A stretch of DNA of 39,093 nucleotides from Candidatus Poseidoniaceae archaeon (lineage in GTDB: Archaea; Thermoplasmatota; Poseidoniia; Poseidoniales; Poseidoniaceae). The notes below the pieces were generated by a model. That model made no database searches, was not told the origin of the DNA, and was given only the letters and a program-made list of their open reading frames with translations. Shown in pieces: positions 17,024-28,671 of this stretch. A program made the position numbers and the translations under genes. The first letter of the stretch is position 1; each line of letters opens with the position of its first letter. The stretch covers positions 1 through 39,093 of the forward strand of contig JANXHP010000047.1 of NCBI GenBank assembly GCA_024958795.1, read 5' to 3'.

Positions 17024-17141
17024 TATTCATTGGTCATTATTCAAAAGTGCCTTTGGAGCGCATTTTCCGCCCATCCATAGTTAAGGACTATAACCGATAC
17101 ATAAAGTCGGCAATCTTGCACGTAAGTGCACGGTGTTCCAA

Positions 17142-20100
17142 ATGACCCTCTCTCACAACCAAATGGCCTATGTGGCAATCGTTTCAACACTAATCTTTGG
17201 CTCCCTTTTCGTGGGTGTCTCAGGATACTACCAAACCAGTGGTTCTATCGGTCAATTCGATAGCGCTGTTGAAGATGATTTATTTGGTAAAGGCACCACT
17301 AGTTCTGAAGCCTTAGATTCTGATGGCGACGGACTTGCAGACTCACTTGAGGAGACTCAATATGGTACAGATCCATTAGATGAGGATACAGATAAAGACG
17401 GTATGAGTGATGGTTGGGAAGTAGAACACGGCCTTAATCCACTCGATAATGGTGAATCTGATGACTTGGAAACAGACCCCGGTCAAGCAGAAACAGAAGA
17501 TGCATCGGAAAAGAATGAAACAGAATCATGGCCTGATCCTAATCAAGGTCCAAATGGAGATCCTGATGGTGATGGCTTAACCAACGAAGCAGAAGCAGAA
17601 TTGGGAACAGACCCACAGAGGTCAGACAGTGATAACGATGGTCTTGGAGACCGCTGGGAATCACTTTACACCACTACTGTTCAAACCCCTGGTGGAACAG
17701 TTACATTATTTGACCCACTTTCTGGTAATTGGGATTGCCTACTGCTAGACCAAGCGATGGTTGATGCTCTATCAGAGAGATTTGATGGAGAGAATGGTAA
17801 TGCAAACTGGGATGACTTAGCAAATCCTGCTGGAACTCACTCCTGTGACATGGTCCTAGATACAGATGATGATGGATTAGCCAATTTTGAGGAAGAAATG
17901 TTTGGAACAAATCCAACAGCAAGGGATTCTGATATGGATTTAATAGATGATATCGTCGAAGTATCTAACACCTCAGTAAGCTTGTTTGTCGGAACTGGTG
18001 AAGATTGTAACATTCCATTATTAGACCCAATTATTAGGGCAGCCCCTTACATGGGAATGGAAAGATCATGGTTCTTACAAGACATGGATAATGATGGAAT
18101 AAACAATGGCCCATCTGATTGGGATACCGATGGAGATGGAATGCCTGATGGATTTGAGTATTGTTACTCACATCAATTAGAACACCCTCAAAATAATGAT
18201 TATGAGACACTTGACCCTGCAAACGCATCCGATGGATATGGCGATTGGGATGAAGATGGAATGAATAATTTAGAGGAATACGAAGTAGCACTAATTTTCG
18301 GTTCAACAAATTTCACATCTCCTTGGAGAGTTGATACCGACCTTGACGGAATGCCAGATGGCTGGGAGTCAACAAATGGACTACACCCAAGAGATGGGTC
18401 AAATGGTGATATTGACCAAGACCGTGATGGTTGGGATGCTGATGGAGACGGAGCTGTACGTTATGACACTCTTGAATTAACAGCAGTTGTCATTGGAATA
18501 GATGTGGTAATGGACCAATGGGTTGTTGCAAATCAAACAGTTGCACGAGCCCAAATTACCCTTGGTGGAGGAAATAAGCAGACTATTCCTCTAACAGCAC
18601 CTGTTGATGGATATGTCTATTCAATCCATGTTGTACTAGGACAAACAATTGAATCAAGGCTGACTATCTGGCTTGAAATTGTAGAACCTGAAGAACAATT
18701 TACAAATGTCATGGAATACAATGCAAGAGATAGAGATGGAGATGGAATAATCGATGGTCGCTCTACAAATCCATTGAACCCCGACACTGATGGAGACGGA
18801 TTGATTGATGGAATTGAAGTAATGGGTTGGGAAATCCTTGTTGTTAATCGTGGTGTCCAAAGAACTTGGGTTACTTCAGACCCTGGTTTGTATGATACCG
18901 ATGCAGATGGTCTAAGCGATTACGAAGAATTCGCATCAATTTGTAACCAAGGTTCAAACGCTTCTAATCCAGATACTGATGGTGATGGTTTGGGAGACCA
19001 AACTGAATCCTTGTCTGGATTCACTTGGGATGGAGAAGCATACTTCACAAGTCCATGTATGTTTGATACAGACAATGATGGTCTTGAAGATGGAGAAGAG
19101 GTAATCGCTGGAGCAGACAATTTCCTAACACATGCAAATAATTCAGATACAGATAATGATGGATTAATTGATGGACATGAAGTGTTGTATATTCCGAGAC
19201 CGTTCCAAAACCCCACAAATCCGTTAATCAATGATACGGATTCTGATGGAATGCTCGATGGTTGGGAAATGCAGGTAAAGTCGACTGAAGAGAACACAAA
19301 TTCTCACTCGTTATGGGTTACCACATCTTCGTGGCAACGTCCAAGTTGTACACCATCGCAAAATGATGATTGCTCAATGCCAGCTGGTGGATATATGTGG
19401 CAAAGTTGGCTTGGAGGCTTTGTTCAGACAGCCAAGTATGAAGTATCGGAGATGAATCTAACCGGATTCGCAATGCCATCTAATTCTAAGTGTGATGGAT
19501 GTTCTGGAAGATGGGCTTTAGATCCATCACTAGATTCATTGAAAGATGATACCTTCGATATCGATAATGATACTCTTCCGAATGGTGCTGAAGCACCTGA
19601 TAGATGGAATACTAACCCAGTAGATGATGATACTGATGGAGATCAACTTCCAGATGGATGGGAAGTTCATTACTCTGAAATCGCTCTAGAACTTGGATTG
19701 ACTGATAATTCAACAACTAGCGTATATGGAGCACGTGGTGTAATGGATCCATCAATGCCAGATAGTGACTTAGACGGAATATGGGATGGAGAAGAAGACC
19801 CTGACCATGATGGTTTGAACCGTTCTGGATTGATTAAGAAATATTGCCCTGGACATAATGATACTACAAATTCAGATTGTCATATTGACCCTGAAACTCC
19901 AGATGGTAAGAAATTCTATGATAACTTAGAAAATTACACTAATCTTGAAGAGATGCAGAATAATACTAACCCGGTATCAAATGATACTGATGGAGATGAA
20001 TGGAATGACGGACCTGAAGTCTACTACCAAGATCATGATGATGATGGTATGGCAACAGGTTGGGAACATCACTTCAAATTCGACCCTGAAGATGCTGCCG

Positions 20101-20225
20101 ATAGAATGGTGGATACAGATGGTGATGGCCATGTTAATTTCTGTGAATATAAGTGGGATACCAATCCAAGAAACCCTCTTTCATATCCTGGACAGGGTGA
20201 ACTTTGCGATCCATTCAGCGAATGA
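17142..20225 (+). CDS. Giant surface/secreted protein with thrombospondin type 3 / EF-hand-like Ca-binding repeats
   Basis: N-terminal TM/signal (MAYVAIVSTLIFGSLFVGVSGYY), then many D-x-D-x-D-G repeats (DSDGDGLADSLEETQYGTDPLDEDTDKDGMSDGWEVEHGLNPLD). ORF opens at 17133 with GTG; ATG is at 17142. Confidence 0.85.
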   Translation: MTLSHNQMAYVAIVSTLIFGSLFVGVSGYYQTSGSIGQFDSAVEDDLFGKGTTSSEALDSDGDGLADSLEETQYGTDPLDEDTDKDGMSDGWEVEHGLNPLDNGESDDLETDPGQAETEDASEKNETESWPDPNQGPNGDPDGDGLTNEAEAELGTDPQRSDSDNDGLGDRWESLYTTTVQTPGGTVTLFDPLSGNWDCLLLDQAMVDALSERFDGENGNANWDDLANPAGTHSCDMVLDTDDDGLANFEEEMFGTNPTARDSDMDLIDDIVEVSNTSVSLFVGTGEDCNIPLLDPIIRAAPYMGMERSWFLQDMDNDGINNGPSDWDTDGDGMPDGFEYCYSHQLEHPQNNDYETLDPANASDGYGDWDEDGMNNLEEYEVALIFGSTNFTSPWRVDTDLDGMPDGWESTNGLHPRDGSNGDIDQDRDGWDADGDGAVRYDTLELTAVVIGIDVVMDQWVVANQTVARAQITLGGGNKQTIPLTAPVDGYVYSIHVVLGQTIESRLTIWLEIVEPEEQFTNVMEYNARDRDGDGIIDGRSTNPLNPDTDGDGLIDGIEVMGWEILVVNRGVQRTWVTSDPGLYDTDADGLSDYEEFASICNQGSNASNPDTDGDGLGDQTESLSGFTWDGEAYFTSPCMFDTDNDGLEDGEEVIAGADNFLTHANNSDTDNDGLIDGHEVLYIPRPFQNPTNPLINDTDSDGMLDGWEMQVKSTEENTNSHSLWVTTSSWQRPSCTPSQNDDCSMPAGGYMWQSWLGGFVQTAKYEVSEMNLTGFAMPSNSKCDGCSGRWALDPSLDSLKDDTFDIDNDTLPNGAEAPDRWNTNPVDDDTDGDQLPDGWEVHYSEIALELGLTDNSTTSVYGARGVMDPSMPDSDLDGIWDGEEDPDHDGLNRSGLIKKYCPGHNDTTNSDCHIDPETPDGKKFYDNLENYTNLEEMQNNTNPVSNDTDGDEWNDGPEVYYQDHDDDGMATGWEHHFKFDPEDAADRMVDTDGDGHVNFCEYKWDTNPRNPLSYPGQGELCDPFSE

Positions 20226-21850
20226 TTAATGTTGTAAATAACAACCATATTGCACTAAACTTGATGTCTTATAGCGTTGCACCTGTATTCATGGGAGTAG
20301 GTAGGTCAATTGCAGCCTGCTTAGTCTGCCTAATATTTTGCACACTACCACTTACAGTTTCGGTATTTGCACATCATATTGATGAAGAAAATTACAACTT
20401 ATTTATTTTTCAAGAAGATGGTTCTATCTTTTCTGAAAATATCTCATTAAATGGTACAACGACGCTACCTCCGAGTGAGGCGACATGGGAATTGTGGAAT
20501 GTTGGCGATGGTAATTCTAATTGGAACATGGAAGCCTCTGGTTCTCATTTCAGTAGTGTTGTCCCGGTATCAGATAATTTGTGGAATTGGACACTAGAGA
20601 TTAATGTAACAGAAATTGAGTGCACTTGTTTACTTACAATTTCTGTACCAAATGGATTAGACCCAATGACAAAATCAATTATTGTTTACTTGGGAGAAAT
20701 AGGACATAGGCCGATGATATTAGATATTGAATATACTACGACGATAGTTGTAGAAGAGCCAGTAACAATAGAAATAGACTATGTTGTTCCAGGAATCAAC
20801 AATGCAGGCGTTACTGTTTTCGCCACAGTATGTGAAGCACCACATACGGTTTGTTTGGAAGAACCATCCCCAATCACATTGAACCAAACAGATCACAATG
20901 GAACAGTGATTATTACATTAAATAATATTGAACTAAACCTTGCAGATGGAATATATCAATTTGAATATTTTGTCAAGGATGCACTGTTATTAAATTCCAA
21001 TTCAGAAACAATTGCAATAGTAATCGATACTCAGGAGCCAATAGTGAGTATTAATGGTCCTGAAAATGCAATAGAATCACAAACAATTTACATTTCTGCA
21101 ACAGTTGATGATGGTTATAGTGGTTCTAGTGAAAATCTAGTTTGGACGATTTATTCACCTGATGGTAAAGTACGCAGCCCAACTACTGAGGAAAGGCAAG
21201 ATGATTATTCTCTGAATATTATTCCTCTAATTTCAGGAGACTGGACCATTGAATTATTAGTGCGAGATGTTGGAGGACATTTTGTCAATACATATCATTC
21301 ATTTTCTATTGCAAATAATGATCCACAAGCATATCTGACATTGGATGGATTTGAGGTTGCCAATGGTAGTTCAATAACACCTGCTAATGCAAATGATTGG
21401 ATATTAGATTGCTCTGGAAGTACTGATACAATTGATGATATGGAAACATTACAATATGTGTGGTATGTTGAAGGAAAGGCAAGAGTTAGTGGTAAAGAAA
21501 ATTTCACTCAAGATGATTTTGTCATTATAGGTCAGCAACAGATGATGCTAGTAGTGACTGATGATGATGGAGTTGAGTCAACAATAAATTTCACACTATT
21601 TGTCGAAGAGCAACCAATTACATCGAATGATTCATCAATATTGCTTGGAATCTTTGTTTTAGCAATTATCGTATCTGGAATCTTTGCAGTTCAAAAGTTT
21701 TCTAAGAAGTCCAAGGATTCAAAAAAATCCAAAAATATCCCGAAATGGGGAGAGCACAAAAAAACTGATGATAGCCAAGATGAAGAATTGGTGATTACTA
21801 ATAATGAAGACAGTATCTGGAACGATAAATCCTTTGATGGTAAATCCTAA
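20222..21850 (+). CDS. Membrane-anchored extracellular protein with Ig/PKD-like domains
   Basis: ATGA overlap with the upstream stop (20222-20225) implies translational coupling. N-terminal signal, beta-rich repeats (VSINGPENAIESQTIYISATVDDGYSGSSENLVWTI; CSGSTDTIDDMETLQYVWYVEG...QQMMLVVTDDDGVESTINFTL), then a C-terminal TM (SILLGIFVLAIIVSGIFAV) and a Lys-rich tail. Confidence 0.8.
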   Translation: MINVVNNNHIALNLMSYSVAPVFMGVGRSIAACLVCLIFCTLPLTVSVFAHHIDEENYNLFIFQEDGSIFSENISLNGTTTLPPSEATWELWNVGDGNSNWNMEASGSHFSSVVPVSDNLWNWTLEINVTEIECTCLLTISVPNGLDPMTKSIIVYLGEIGHRPMILDIEYTTTIVVEEPVTIEIDYVVPGINNAGVTVFATVCEAPHTVCLEEPSPITLNQTDHNGTVIITLNNIELNLADGIYQFEYFVKDALLLNSNSETIAIVIDTQEPIVSINGPENAIESQTIYISATVDDGYSGSSENLVWTIYSPDGKVRSPTTEERQDDYSLNIIPLISGDWTIELLVRDVGGHFVNTYHSFSIANNDPQAYLTLDGFEVANGSSITPANANDWILDCSGSTDTIDDMETLQYVWYVEGKARVSGKENFTQDDFVIIGQQQMMLVVTDDDGVESTINFTLFVEEQPITSNDSSILLGIFVLAIIVSGIFAVQKFSKKSKDSKKSKNIPKWGEHKKTDDSQDEELVITNNEDSIWNDKSFDGKS

Positions 21851-23265: not shown

Positions 23266-24456
23266 GTGGTCCTATTGGATTGGGTTCAGATATTACAGCA
23301 GCAGGCCAAATGGTCAAGTAATAATAAATCTGAAAACAGACTAACTTCACAACAGGCAATAGAGTTGTACGATAACGCTCCATTACACCAATTAATGGCT
23401 GCAGCGATGGAGAGGAGAAAAGCAATACATCCGGAAGGATATGTTACTTATCTAATAGATAGAAATATCAATTATACAAATATCTGTACTATTAATTGCC
23501 AGTTTTGTTCTTTTTATCGTCCACCAAATCATCCGGAAACTTATACTCAGACATTTGAGGAGATAAGTGCAAGGATAGTGGAATTAGAGCAAATTGGAGG
23601 GAGTAGAATCCTAATGCAAGGGGGAGTGAACCCTGATTTGCCGATAAATTGGTATCAAGAATTGATCACTTCCTTGAGAAAACATCATCCAACTATTGCA
23701 CTTGATTGCTTTTCACCAATTGAAATTGAAGGAATTGCAGACGTTAGTGGATTGACTACCCTTGAAGTGCTTACAAAATTCCAATCTGTAGGTATGCATG
23801 GTCTACCAGGTGGAGGTGCAGAAATGCTCGTGGAATCAGTTAGGAAGGATGTTTCTCCCAAAAAGGGTCTTCCTGAGAATTGGCTAAAAGTGATGAAAGA
23901 AGCTCAATCGCTTGGTCTTACTACCAGTGCCACAAATGTGTTTGGTTTTGGCGAGGGAGCGACTGAGAGAGTTGAACATATGAGGAGAATACGAGAATTA
24001 CAAGACCAATCTCTCGAATCATACAATATAGGATTCACATCATTCATCGCATGGCCAGTTCAATTAGAAGTGAACAGTTTTGGAAGGAGAAACAGAGGTC
24101 AAAATAAATTTGAATTAGGTGCAGGTTCAAGCGAATATCTTCGCCATGTAGCAGTATCTAGACTATTTTTTGACAATATTGAAAATATTCAATCTTCATG
24201 GCCAACAATGGGTATTTCAGTAGCCCAAATGGCATTGATGGGTGGAGCTAACGATATAGGTTCAACTATGATGGAAGAAAATGTTGTTTCAGCATCTGGT
24301 ACAACCAAATTAAGTGCAAGTGAAAAAGAGTTACAAGATGTGATTCTGAGAGCAGGATTCCGCCCTGCAATAAGAGATTCGGACTACAATTTACTACCAA
24401 CAACATTAGTTGCAGCTGAAGTAACTTCTCTGAAGGCACCAACGCCCATTCAGTAA
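23266..24456 (+). CDS. mqnC: Radical SAM cyclic dehypoxanthine futalosine synthase-like (MqnC family)
   Basis: INYTNICTINCQFCSFYRPP (CxxxCxxC), RLTSQQAIELYDNAPLHQL, IGGSRILMQGGVNPDLPINWY, MGGANDIGSTMMEENVVSASG. The pattern matches MqnC more closely than CofH or MqnE. GTG start directly abuts the pepP stop. Confidence 0.8.
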   Translation: MVLLDWVQILQQQAKWSSNNKSENRLTSQQAIELYDNAPLHQLMAAAMERRKAIHPEGYVTYLIDRNINYTNICTINCQFCSFYRPPNHPETYTQTFEEISARIVELEQIGGSRILMQGGVNPDLPINWYQELITSLRKHHPTIALDCFSPIEIEGIADVSGLTTLEVLTKFQSVGMHGLPGGGAEMLVESVRKDVSPKKGLPENWLKVMKEAQSLGLTTSATNVFGFGEGATERVEHMRRIRELQDQSLESYNIGFTSFIAWPVQLEVNSFGRRNRGQNKFELGAGSSEYLRHVAVSRLFFDNIENIQSSWPTMGISVAQMALMGGANDIGSTMMEENVVSASGTTKLSASEKELQDVILRAGFRPAIRDSDYNLLPTTLVAAEVTSLKAPTPIQ

Positions 24457-27400
24457 TCAACTACTAGTTGCTGCTGAAAATACCACATATACAACAGCCC
24501 TTATTTGTCGTTGTCCATTTCCAATATTTTCGCTTGGAGTATATTCTTGGCCATTATACAATCCTTTGTAAACCAAGTGATTATTTCCACCATCCATATC
24601 ACTCCACGAAGTAATATCGTATGTCCACTGTTTCACATCTTGACCTGCACACCATCCTGCTCTACCATACGGCCATGAGCCATACTGATTTGCAACTACG
24701 CCATTTGCGATCTCTACCTTGCATCCATTTGCCTGATTATGAACAACAGGGTGCCATTCATAGGTATGACTTCCATTCATGTAATAATGGTGTTCATGGT
24801 CGCAGAATTCAGCACAATTAGCAGCATCTTTTTGGAAGCCATGTCCGGTAATTGTTGCAACCAATGAGACTTTAGTTGCCCAAGAGGGAACTGTGAAATT
24901 CATTTGTCTATTATACTTAGATTCATTATTGTAAGTTCCATCAAATTGACCACCTGAGAATGCGTAATCAGCCTCATATGAACGCTCACCACTACCCCAA
25001 TCACTGAAGAGGAATTTCACAGTCAAATCACCCTTATTTGCACCACCATATTTGAAACGTCTTTCCTCACCATCATCTATCATGAATAAGTATGGTGAAA
25101 TATCAGTTAACCACATTCCCTCTCGCCCATATGTAGTAATCCATCGCATTATTTCTGTACTACATTGCGAACTATTTTGTTCATTACAGATGTATAGATT
25201 TGCTAAGTAATCCCATTCATGACATCCACCATAACTGCCATCAGAATTACTATGTCTATTTTCTCTATCAGGGCATGCATGCTCATGGTATACCTCTAAT
25301 GTATCATATGAACTAATATTATTCGCTAAGTCAAATGTTGCATTTGAGAAACTACTGAATCCTCCACCCCATCCTCCAGCATGATTTTGGAAATCCATTA
25401 TTGTGACAACTTCAACACCAGGATCTAATTCTCTAACCTTTGTAGGAAATTCTACATTCCATTGTACTGGCTCAAATGCGATATGGCTTGGGTCATTTGA
25501 TTGAGTTGGCCAATCATAGAATGAACCAACTTCACGCGAAAGTTGAAATCGGTCAATTCCCATGTATAATGGGTTATTAAATGAATTAATCATTTGACCT
25601 AATCCTCCACCAATACTACTCGCTCGTTGGTCAATATAGTGGATTCGATCTCCCCATTTTTCTTCTTCAGAAGGGTTTAATGCTGCAAGAACAGACGATT
25701 TCTGTTGAGTAACATCACTGTGATATGTGGAATCAAAAGAGCCGTAGAATAAGTGAGTATTATCTGGAAGTGCGCGAATCAACTTACCAGGGTTTTGTCC
25801 CCATGTAGCAGAGTTGGAACTTCCATCTCCATTGGTATATTTGAACATTAATAAGTAAACATCATCCCCCGTCCAGCGTTGTTCAAAATAGAATGTTCCA
25901 TCTAAAGTTGGAACGCTAAAATGCGGTACTGCTTGCATGGGGCCACTCAATGATGTTGCAGATGTCCAAGCAATCGGTTGTTGAATAACAGCGCAACCAG
26001 AACTATTTGCAGTCCAACGTTGAGGAGTATCGGGACAAATATCCACATTTGAGAAAACACCATCATTGTCAATATCTGCACACCCGACTCCATTCACGAC
26101 AATATTAGCAGGAGTCCCCTCACACATATCATAGAAATCAAGAACGCCATCAGAATCACTGTCACGCTCTATCGAAGCACAACCATCTTCATCAATATCG
26201 ATGCCTGTTTTCGGAGTTCGTGGACATTGGTCCAACGTAGCACCTGTTGAATTGTAATCATTTACACCGTCATTATCATCGTCATCATCTTCAGAAGTAT
26301 CGAAGCATCCGTCGTCATCAAAATCATTGAATTCATCTCTAATCCATGATGTCAAACCTTTTGGACATGAATCAACCGAATCATTTCTTTGGTCATTATC
26401 ATCATCATCATCTTCATCTAAATCAGAACAACCATCACCATCCCAATCACTGTATAGATTAGAAATCCAACCGGTTAGTCCCATCGGGCAAGAATCGACC
26501 AAATCATCAACTCCATCTCCATCATCATCAAGATCAAATGATTCATCATGACAACCATCTTGGTCATAATCTGCATCAATTGTGCTTTTCCATCCTACCG
26601 AATTTGGGCAATTGTCCTTCACATCCTCAATCCCGTCTGCATCATCATCATCGTCTTCATCTCTATCCCTACATCCATCTGAATCCATATCATCAGTAGT
26701 TGAAGAAATCCAACCCTCCGCTTCACCAATTCCATTAGGGCAATTGTCATTATCGTCAATTATTCCATCACCATCCGCATCAATACCCGCATTTTCAACG
26801 ATAATGGTGGTAGTTGAGGTGTCCGTTAGTATTGTCCATTCTCCACATGTGGCAACAAAAGTGATTGTAATATCAGTTACTCCATCGTATAGTTCAGTAA
26901 GCAATTTCCAAGAACCATCTGATTTTACATCTACTTGTCCTTGTTCTTCATCACTTGAGTAACTTAATGAACAACTTTCTAAATGGTCATGAGAAATTGT
27001 GCCTGAAACCCATGTTAATCCTGAATCCTCTAACAGTATTAGGGAAGGAGCATTCAATATTGGTGCTCCTTCAATGGGTGGCAAAATCTGTATTATGTGA
27101 GATACTATAACAGGTCCGTCAACAATTGTTGTTTCTTTATCAGCTGCCTCAAAAGTTGCAGCGATATTGTAACTCACAATTTCACTTGGCATGAAAGTAA
27201 CATGTACAATGTCTTTGGATTGTGTCATTGCAAATTCAACTTCCGGATAAATGGATACTGATGCCAACCAATCCCCTTCACCTTGACTTTGAACTGTGAT
27301 TTGAAGGCTTACAATTTCCTCCAATATTGCATTTGTAGGCGGTTCAACGAATTGCACATTGAGCTCTAATTCCTTCACTACAGGTGTTATTTCTTCTTCA

Positions 27401-27483
27401 GCAATTTCATCTGTAGCACCGAAACAACCAGCACTTAACATCACGAAAATTAATATTACAGCAGAAGTACGCTGACTGCCCAT
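24457..27483 (-). CDS. Secreted lipoprotein: Cys-paired Ca-binding (TSP3-like) repeats plus C-terminal PNGase F-like domain
   Basis: Lipobox-like signal MGSQRTSAVILIFVMLSAGC. 4-5 repeats CPxG...W...D-x-D-x-DGC. The C-terminus contains GGCHEWDYLANLYIC...IMRWITTYGREG...LTDISPYLF...ITGHGF....CAEFCDHEHHYYMNG...YGSWPYGRAGWCAGQ, resembling PNGase F motifs (CDEWDRYANVYV; GRFITPYW; CAEWCFRTHTIAIN; NWAPDRAGWCPG). Confidence 0.8.
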   Translation of the reverse strand: MGSQRTSAVILIFVMLSAGCFGATDEIAEEEITPVVKELELNVQFVEPPTNAILEEIVSLQITVQSQGEGDWLASVSIYPEVEFAMTQSKDIVHVTFMPSEIVSYNIAATFEAADKETTIVDGPVIVSHIIQILPPIEGAPILNAPSLILLEDSGLTWVSGTISHDHLESCSLSYSSDEEQGQVDVKSDGSWKLLTELYDGVTDITITFVATCGEWTILTDTSTTTIIVENAGIDADGDGIIDDNDNCPNGIGEAEGWISSTTDDMDSDGCRDRDEDDDDDADGIEDVKDNCPNSVGWKSTIDADYDQDGCHDESFDLDDDGDGVDDLVDSCPMGLTGWISNLYSDWDGDGCSDLDEDDDDDNDQRNDSVDSCPKGLTSWIRDEFNDFDDDGCFDTSEDDDDDNDGVNDYNSTGATLDQCPRTPKTGIDIDEDGCASIERDSDSDGVLDFYDMCEGTPANIVVNGVGCADIDNDGVFSNVDICPDTPQRWTANSSGCAVIQQPIAWTSATSLSGPMQAVPHFSVPTLDGTFYFEQRWTGDDVYLLMFKYTNGDGSSNSATWGQNPGKLIRALPDNTHLFYGSFDSTYHSDVTQQKSSVLAALNPSEEEKWGDRIHYIDQRASSIGGGLGQMINSFNNPLYMGIDRFQLSREVGSFYDWPTQSNDPSHIAFEPVQWNVEFPTKVRELDPGVEVVTIMDFQNHAGGWGGGFSSFSNATFDLANNISSYDTLEVYHEHACPDRENRHSNSDGSYGGCHEWDYLANLYICNEQNSSQCSTEIMRWITTYGREGMWLTDISPYLFMIDDGEERRFKYGGANKGDLTVKFLFSDWGSGERSYEADYAFSGGQFDGTYNNESKYNRQMNFTVPSWATKVSLVATITGHGFQKDAANCAEFCDHEHHYYMNGSHTYEWHPVVHNQANGCKVEIANGVVANQYGSWPYGRAGWCAGQDVKQWTYDITSWSDMDGGNNHLVYKGLYNGQEYTPSENIGNGQRQIRAVVYVVFSAATSS

Positions 27484-27528
27484 AATATTGCATGGAATAA
27501 AGCAACCCTTCAATGTGTTGTTTTAGAA

Positions 27529-28671
27529 TCATTCAATTTCAGATTCAGTTCTTCCATCATTTACAATCAGAGTCTTCTGTTCAACATGTTTTGAAGAATG
27601 CTTAACCCTGAGTGGTTCAACCCATAATAATGGTCCCTCATTTTCCCTTTCAATTTTTATTATTAATTCCCAATGAATTTTCACTAGAGGGCTAATCGTA
27701 GTACCAGGCCAAGAGTTTTTTGGATTTTTAAGAATCATTTCCTCTTCACTATATTCAACTATGCCACCAGATTGCATTACCCGCATTGGTCTTAAAAATA
27801 AGCCTCCAATAACTTCTTGGCGCTGCATCGGTGCATCCTCTCCAGCACCAGTTCCATCATCAAGTCCCGCTTCCCAATGGTGTGGTAATTTAGTTGTCAA
27901 ACCAGGAGGTGGCTGTCCCTCAACAGTTCGATTTAATGCTGAAAAAACAGCATCTCTTGCAGGTGGTAATGCACCAACCCTCCAATAGACCGTAATTGAA
28001 TTCCAATTAGTTTGAAGTGTATCAAATTTAACTTTTATTTTCAAGTCCTTATCGGCTACTGCTTCACCAATTATTTTTATTTCTGGATTTGAGGGTGACT
28101 TATTTAGGAACATTTTTTGTCTACGTAAATCGCCAAAATTCGCAGCAACTCTCAAACCGAGTGGAATGAAAAATAGTGGGGCTACTATTATTGCTAGTAA
28201 TGGATAATCTAGTAGACCAACACGAACTGTCCCAGTTCCAATTCCAGGAATCCCAACAAGTGAAAGTATTGGTTCAATGAATAAATAAAGTAGTGAAATT
28301 AGGAGGACATAGACAACTGCATTGATAAATTTTCTAGCAGCAGCATGAATTGGGTGAGGGGTCAAATACCATCCTCTTCGTTGTTTGTCCACGACGATCG
28401 GCCACTCTGAATCATCAAGTATTCCATAGTCATAGACTTCATTTTTGATAGTATTTCCATCAAATATGTATCTTCGTTCTACCAACCAACTGGATTTCTC
28501 TCCGATTTTAAAACTTGGAATCGATTTTGTAATAATTTCATTAGCCTGTTGTAGACTAATATCATCTGAAATAATTTCATTCTTCCTCGAGATTGGCAAT
28601 TCTGATGCCACTAATCTATGCGCTTCAAATGGAGGGTATTTCACCAAATGCTGTACTTCTAATATCCCCAT
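27529..28671 (-). CDS. Hypothetical membrane protein
   Basis: 380 aa with two hydrophobic segments (AVVYVLLISLLYLFIEPILSLVG; LLDYPLLAIIVAPLFFIPLGL) followed by a soluble region. No family recognised. Confidence 0.65.
   Translation of the reverse strand: MGILEVQHLVKYPPFEAHRLVASELPISRKNEIISDDISLQQANEIITKSIPSFKIGEKSSWLVERRYIFDGNTIKNEVYDYGILDDSEWPIVVDKQRRGWYLTPHPIHAAARKFINAVVYVLLISLLYLFIEPILSLVGIPGIGTGTVRVGLLDYPLLAIIVAPLFFIPLGLRVAANFGDLRRQKMFLNKSPSNPEIKIIGEAVADKDLKIKVKFDTLQTNWNSITVYWRVGALPPARDAVFSALNRTVEGQPPPGLTTKLPHHWEAGLDDGTGAGEDAPMQRQEVIGGLFLRPMRVMQSGGIVEYSEEEMILKNPKNSWPGTTISPLVKIHWELIIKIERENEGPLLWVEPLRVKHSSKHVEQKTLIVNDGRTESEIE

Follow-up and report, generated by a model that had tools for sequence, protein, structure and literature searches.

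The C-terminus of a predicted lipoprotein from a Candidatus Poseidoniaceae archaeon is a domain of the PNGase F superfamily, with a similarity to known members far above chance. Its closest characterised relative is the zebrafish enzyme Ngly2 rather than PNGase F, and its gene is a core, syntenic gene of Poseidoniales, not peculiar to one genome. We consider it probable that the protein is a surface, lipid-anchored peptide:N-glycanase of the Ngly2 type, acting most likely on foreign glycoproteins or glycopeptides and feeding proteases. The DNA analysed, called here the window, is the whole 39,093-nucleotide stretch of contig JANXHP010000047.1. The gene and its parts are laid out as follows.

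24457..27483, minus strand: PNGase lipoprotein gene with its likely ATG start, coding for signal peptide and lipobox, N-terminal region, TSP3 stalk, thioredoxin-like (Tx-like) domain and PNGase domain
27424..27483, minus strand: signal peptide and lipobox ending in LSAGC (C30), a predicted lipid anchor read from the sequence
26782..27423, minus strand: N-terminal extracellular region, residues ~31-244, fast-evolving
25993..26781, minus strand: Asp-rich thrombospondin type-3 (TSP3)-like repeats (DxDxDGxxDxxDxCP; PF02412), residues ~245-507
25414..25977, minus strand: cysteine-free thioredoxin-like domain and helical linker, residues ~513-700, from the 9lwg alignment and Foldseek
24460..25413, minus strand: PNGase domain with two jelly rolls, residues ~701-1018, from PF09113, 9lwg and PNGase F

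The longest open reading frame, 24457..27513 on the minus strand, begins with a TTG at 27513 and codes for 1018 aa; residue numbers (C30, D768, E902) count from this frame. The shorter form of 1008 aa, starting at the in-frame ATG at 27483, is more likely because homologues share an N-terminus beginning there. From this start, processing is predicted to leave a mature lipoprotein of about 990 aa. In an alignment of 20 homologues, G29-C30 of the lipobox was invariant, and the Asp and Cys columns of the TSP3 repeats and the paired cysteines were invariant or almost so. An earlier note, made from the sequence alone, had proposed both the lipoprotein anchor and the paired cysteines, and is borne out by the invariant C30 and the near-invariant cysteines. 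PF02412 matched two stretches of the repeats under its curated cut-off (E 0.0012, 18.9 bits, cut-off 25); these repeats probably form a Ca2+-binding stalk. The N-terminal region gave no Pfam match and is only 27-30% identical to that of other Poseidoniaceae, whereas the PNGase domain keeps 70-73% identity.

Assignment to the PNGase F superfamily was supported by sequence and structure searches alike. PF09113 (N-glycanase_C) matched with 78.6 bits (cut-off 25, E 5e-22). PF09112 (N-glycanase_N) stayed below threshold (E 0.19, 11.9 bits against a cut-off of 22.4) and gave no match in the genome scan, where the controls were likewise silent. The N-terminal jelly roll of PNGase F was nonetheless covered by profile and structure alignments, the profile spanning PNGase F residues 5-278. 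Searched with phmmer against the PDB, the protein matched 9lwg with an E-value of 9.6e-50 and PNGase F with 1.5e-11. A profile built from 41 archaeal and bacterial relatives matched 9lwg with an E-value of 1.1e-89. An AlphaFold2 model of residues 508-1018, fed the 41-sequence alignment, reached a pLDDT of 86.4 and a pTM of 0.88, and in this model the two predicted jelly-roll subdomains were recovered. Foldseek again ranked 9lwg first (E 4.6e-34); PNGase F (1pgs) was found at 2.7e-15 with a TM-score (target) of 0.68, PNGF-II and the B. massiliensis PNGase (plant/insect-type) at about 4e-12, then Bacteroides PNGases and PNGase Bb and, lower down, thioredoxin-fold proteins and, weakly, PHM. Pfam domains of PNGase A/H+ and NGLY1 (e.g. 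PF12222) were absent at E up to 1, and a viral fold library returned just weak, low-TM matches. Chance similarity was ruled out by these E-values.

The earlier note had placed a PNGase F-like domain on an archaeal lipoprotein, and Pfam, the PDB sequence search, the predicted structure and catalytic-residue conservation all agree with it. Of the two Pfam families it named, only the C-terminal one rose above threshold; profile and structure searches both returned PNGase F, and the predicted fold contains the two jelly rolls and the catalytic carboxylates. The interval it gave, 24457-25560, corresponds to residues 652-1018 and contains the domain, the PNGase domain proper being the shorter stretch listed above. 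The likeness to PNGase F holds at the level of the superfamily, but the protein is nearer to Ngly2 in its pairing of a Tx-like and a PNGase domain, and the upstream Tx-like domain had been overlooked.

The best PDB relative, 9lwg, is zebrafish Si:dkey-256h2.1, that is Ngly2, an acid PNGase identified and solved in 2025, in which a PA domain interrupts the Tx-like domain (PMC12753239). The alignment of the profile with 9lwg fell into two segments, residues 79-202 and residues 345-687 of the chain, and nothing in the profile corresponded to residues 203-344, the site of the PA domain. Thus the archaeal and bacterial proteins share the Tx-like and PNGase pair without the PA insertion. The Tx-like domain, with no cysteine in residues ~513-700, is the counterpart of the Tx-like dimerisation domain of Ngly2. 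Both proteins have the Tx-like domain followed by the PNGase double jelly roll, with about 35% identity over the PNGase domain, the equivalents of W420-D421, E555 and H546, and no Glu118. Unlike Ngly2, the archaeal protein has no PA insertion and no W480, and has a Tyr in place of H422; Ngly2 is lysosomal, whereas a lipid anchor and a TSP3 stalk are predicted for the archaeal protein.

Other relatives are less close. PNGase F (Elizabethkingia, type I; 1pgs/1pnf/3pms) shares the double jelly roll, D60, E206 and W59, RAGWC and the paired cysteines, but it is only about 20% identical by structure alignment, its R61, Glu118, W120 and W191 are not kept in the archaeal protein, and it has neither a Tx-like domain nor a lipid tether. 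PNGF-II and the Bacteroides group 2 PNGases (4r4x, 7zgn) share the catalytic fold and the lack of Glu at position 118 (Gly in these), but the additional domain at their N-terminus is of the NBL type and not thioredoxin-like, and sequence identity is 11-14%. The Tx-like and PNGase proteins of Myxococcota and Sumerlaeota (L057-L059, L067, L068, L090, L095, L103, L108, L130 and L135) have the same domain order and catalytic residues and no apparent PA insertion; they differ in length (550-832 aa against about 1,000 aa), and the archaeal sequences form a separate clade.

The active site was located by alignment with these enzymes.

25210..25215, minus strand: W767-D768 (in EWD), equivalent to PNGase F W59-D60 and Ngly2 W420-D421, the Asp being catalytic
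25030..25056, minus strand: FKYGGANKG strand (820-828), aligned with PNGase F ~115-122, lacking a conserved acid where Glu118 would lie
24841..24843, minus strand: H891 (in ITGHGF), equivalent to PNGase F W191 and Ngly2 H546, an Ngly2-type marker
24808..24810, minus strand: E902 (in NCAEFC), equivalent to PNGase F E206 and Ngly2 E555, the catalytic Glu

D768 and E902 (numbered D261 and E395 within the aligned region) were invariant in 41 sequences, and the catalytic pair is kept in archaea and bacteria. C[A/S]EFC was present in 105/105 fetched sequences, and several His residues were invariant too. The motifs quoted in the earlier note all occur in the ORF, and the Asp60 and Glu206 equivalents that it described as retained are conserved throughout the family. 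Its doubt about Glu118 was justified: the 41-sequence alignment holds no conserved acid in the FKYGGANKG strand, whose alignment could be shifted by one or two residues. It is this strand, and not SDWGSGER (837-844) as had been suggested, that aligns with the Glu118 region.

H891 is conserved, and at the position of PNGase F R61 and Ngly2 H422 the archaeal protein has Tyr769. There is no clear equivalent of Ngly2 W480 in it, and the short insertion in which this residue sits is missing (residue numbers of the Ngly2 paper were verified against 9lwg, from which they are offset by 25). In Ngly2, D421A and E555A are inactive, and W480A leaves feeble activity (PMC12753239). Bacteroides group 2 PNGases carry at position 118 a Gly that admits core alpha-1,3-fucose (PMC9522356). 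Since zebrafish Ngly2 is active without Glu118 and a Gly stands there in Bacteroides group 2, the missing Glu118 is not a defect, and loss of function on this ground was rejected (PMC12753239, PMC9522356). The absence of the W480 insertion makes a different glycan recognition probable; with Tyr769 and without clear equivalents of Glu118 and W480, it may differ from that for eukaryotic chitobiose-core glycans.

The gene was found in 99 of the 194 genomes of the order Poseidoniales (Marine Group II, MGII). Tallied from the table for these genomes, it occurs in 32/40 genomes of the genus, 81/97 of the family and 18/97 of the sister family. Outside the order, a phylum sample of 390 genomes contained it in only four genomes of one genus of the same class, and these relatives also carry the lipobox, TSP3, Tx and PNGase parts. 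A scan of GTDB contigs gave 320 relatives, the best 80 of which come from Poseidoniales and, among bacteria, from Myxococcota, Sumerlaeota and a small number of further MAGs. Both families preserve the arrangement GGR, 380-aa protein, PNGase, facing an MqnC/CofH-like gene and an M24 peptidase gene in convergent orientation, which places the PNGase gene in their common ancestor. The 380-aa protein had no Pfam or NCBIfam match:

27529..28671, minus strand: upstream neighbour of 380 aa with apparent membrane helices, adjoining PNGase in nearly all Poseidoniales loci

Contamination of the MAG was ruled out by the frequency of the gene in the order and by the kept synteny. The archaeal origin claimed in the earlier note is confirmed by homologous syntenic contigs labelled Poseidoniaceae or Poseidonia. 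In a maximum-likelihood tree, archaeal sequences formed one group (98/94), apart from bacteria and Ngly2. Long branches leave the positions of Ngly2 and PNGase F uncertain, and no direction of transfer is claimed.

Two of the loci deserve a separate remark. CALDQY010000189.1, titled 'uncultured Rhodobiaceae bacterium', has both the gene order and the protein of Poseidoniales, and its record title therefore appears wrong. In a 2.06-Mb single-contig genome (L047; G002:C1, ~1320852), the PNGase ORF is split into two frames, one of 560 aa with the domain and an upstream piece; this is a frameshift or sequencing error.

The neighbours of the gene (tRNA synthetase, topoisomerase, GGR, MqnC/CofH-like, aminopeptidase P and DHOdh) form a housekeeping neighbourhood; a glycan-catabolic cluster was sought there and rejected, and neither is the gene placed in a peptide-degradation locus. 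Elsewhere in the genomes, subtilases gave 9-15 matches per genome in 19/19 Poseidoniaceae genomes. GH92, GH20 and GH18 were found in 0/19 of these, with positive controls detected, and consumption of N-glycans was rejected for this reason. GH38 was found in 6/19; the genome of the window lacks it. Extracellular peptidases and an oligopeptide transporter are reported to be common to MGII genomes (PMC6336850). With many subtilases, this shared equipment and none of the three glycosidase families, removal of glycans to expose protein is likelier than eating glycans.

We propose the following mechanism. The lipobox cysteine would tether the protein to the membrane, and the TSP3 stalk, probably Ca2+-binding, would keep the enzyme away from the cell. 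The non-redox Tx-like domain probably makes a dimer. The double jelly roll, with D768 and E902, would hydrolyse the GlcNAc-Asn amide bond, converting Asn to Asp and releasing the N-glycan. Substrates would most likely be glycoproteins or glycopeptides of other organisms in seawater (algae, protists, animals), and the stripped protein would become accessible to the many proteases of the cell, followed by peptide uptake. Counted against this reading are the lack of clear Glu118 and W480 equivalents, Tyr769, the lack of a glycan- or peptide-degradation locus, and an STT3/AglB oligosaccharyltransferase gene in 19/19 genomes of the family. The pH also speaks against it: Ngly2 requires acid conditions for its activity, and seawater has a pH of about 8. 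PNGase F, for comparison, has a working range from neutral to alkaline (PMC12753239).

The presence of AglB raises the alternative of an active PNGase whose substrates are the cell's own AglB-made N-glycoproteins, serving surface remodelling, turnover or quality control instead of feeding. Its status as a core gene in a housekeeping neighbourhood rather than a catabolic locus, and recognition residues unlike those of PNGase F and Ngly2, would fit such a role. However, AglB is present in many archaea, whereas PNGase was found within the phylum sample only in this class; the sister family mostly does without PNGase, so that cells probably glycosylating themselves too can dispense with it; and the bacterial and fish homologues have the same catalytic core. 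We regard this alternative as a serious rival, though an unlikely one. It is slightly less probable still that removal of own AglB N-glycans makes archaeal surface N-glycosylation enzymatically reversible, with the altered recognition residues reflecting an archaeal glycan core. As an observation on AglB itself, the AglB/STT3 match sits in a giant frame (~2,200-3,270 aa) in most of the 19 Poseidoniaceae genomes. In one of them (L137; G094:C16, minus strand), a 3245-aa frame consists of a multi-membrane-spanning part with WWDYG, then about 2,000 aa of repeated, extracellular-looking sequence.

The protein might instead be a jelly-roll protein, catalytically dead or divergent, whose role is to bind glycans or peptides as a lectin-like adhesin, without hydrolysis. 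That both Glu118 and the substrate-binding Trp have been lost would agree with this, and thrombospondin genes have been linked to adhesion in MGII (PMC6461757). The PNGase domain, however, is under strong purifying selection. Compared with near relatives, dN/dS was 0.022-0.030 in this domain, the slowest-evolving part of the protein, 0.042-0.070 in the Tx-like domain and 0.14-0.24 in the N-terminal region, values that are approximate as dS was often >1. Together with family-wide retention of the Asp and Glu in the NCAEFC, TGHG and EWD motifs, and with the activity of Ngly2 despite its missing Glu118, this makes a non-enzymatic role improbable. Several invariant His and a weak Foldseek match to 1opm (E 1.1e-4, TM 0.23-0.33) suggested a further reading, namely an enzyme resembling the copper-dependent monooxygenase PHM, or one of another kind with a double jelly roll, in place of an amidase. 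This is very improbable: Pfam, searched at E up to 1, gave no Cu2_monooxygen match, the PNGase catalytic pair is invariant, and in both structure and sequence the protein resembles PNGases far more closely.

Poseidoniales are the most abundant archaea of the sunlit surface ocean, and glycoproteins are a fraction of marine protein protected against proteases. If active, the Ngly2-type enzyme proposed here would give MGII a defined route into this fraction, and, within the open-licence literature searched, no archaeal member of the PNGase F superfamily would have been reported before it. Our search of open-licence papers for PNGase in MGII or archaea found no report, an absence that is not proof, and a word search of the main text of the MGII genome papers found no mention of N-glycans or glycosidases. 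Ngly2 orthologues have been reported in aquatic animals and some bacteria, and a word search of the same paper found no mention of archaea (PMC12753239). The Tx-like and PNGase pair of fish Ngly2 is widespread in prokaryotes without a PA domain, and this form is thus a plausible ancestor of the animal enzyme as well as a source of new deglycosylation tools.

Other genes of the window showed features of their own, all on the plus strand. The product of 23266..24456 is a CofH-family radical SAM protein, best matched as MqnC (TIGR03699) with 415 bits, just below the cut-off of 428, which suggests a futalosine menaquinone-pathway enzyme. A 1030-aa TSP3-repeat protein is encoded at 17133..20225; its synteny is kept in most Poseidoniales and its sequence is conserved at 50-93%. 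The 548-aa product of 20204..21850 looks secreted, with a C-terminal membrane helix, and diverges fast (24-64%) with synteny kept in most Poseidoniales.
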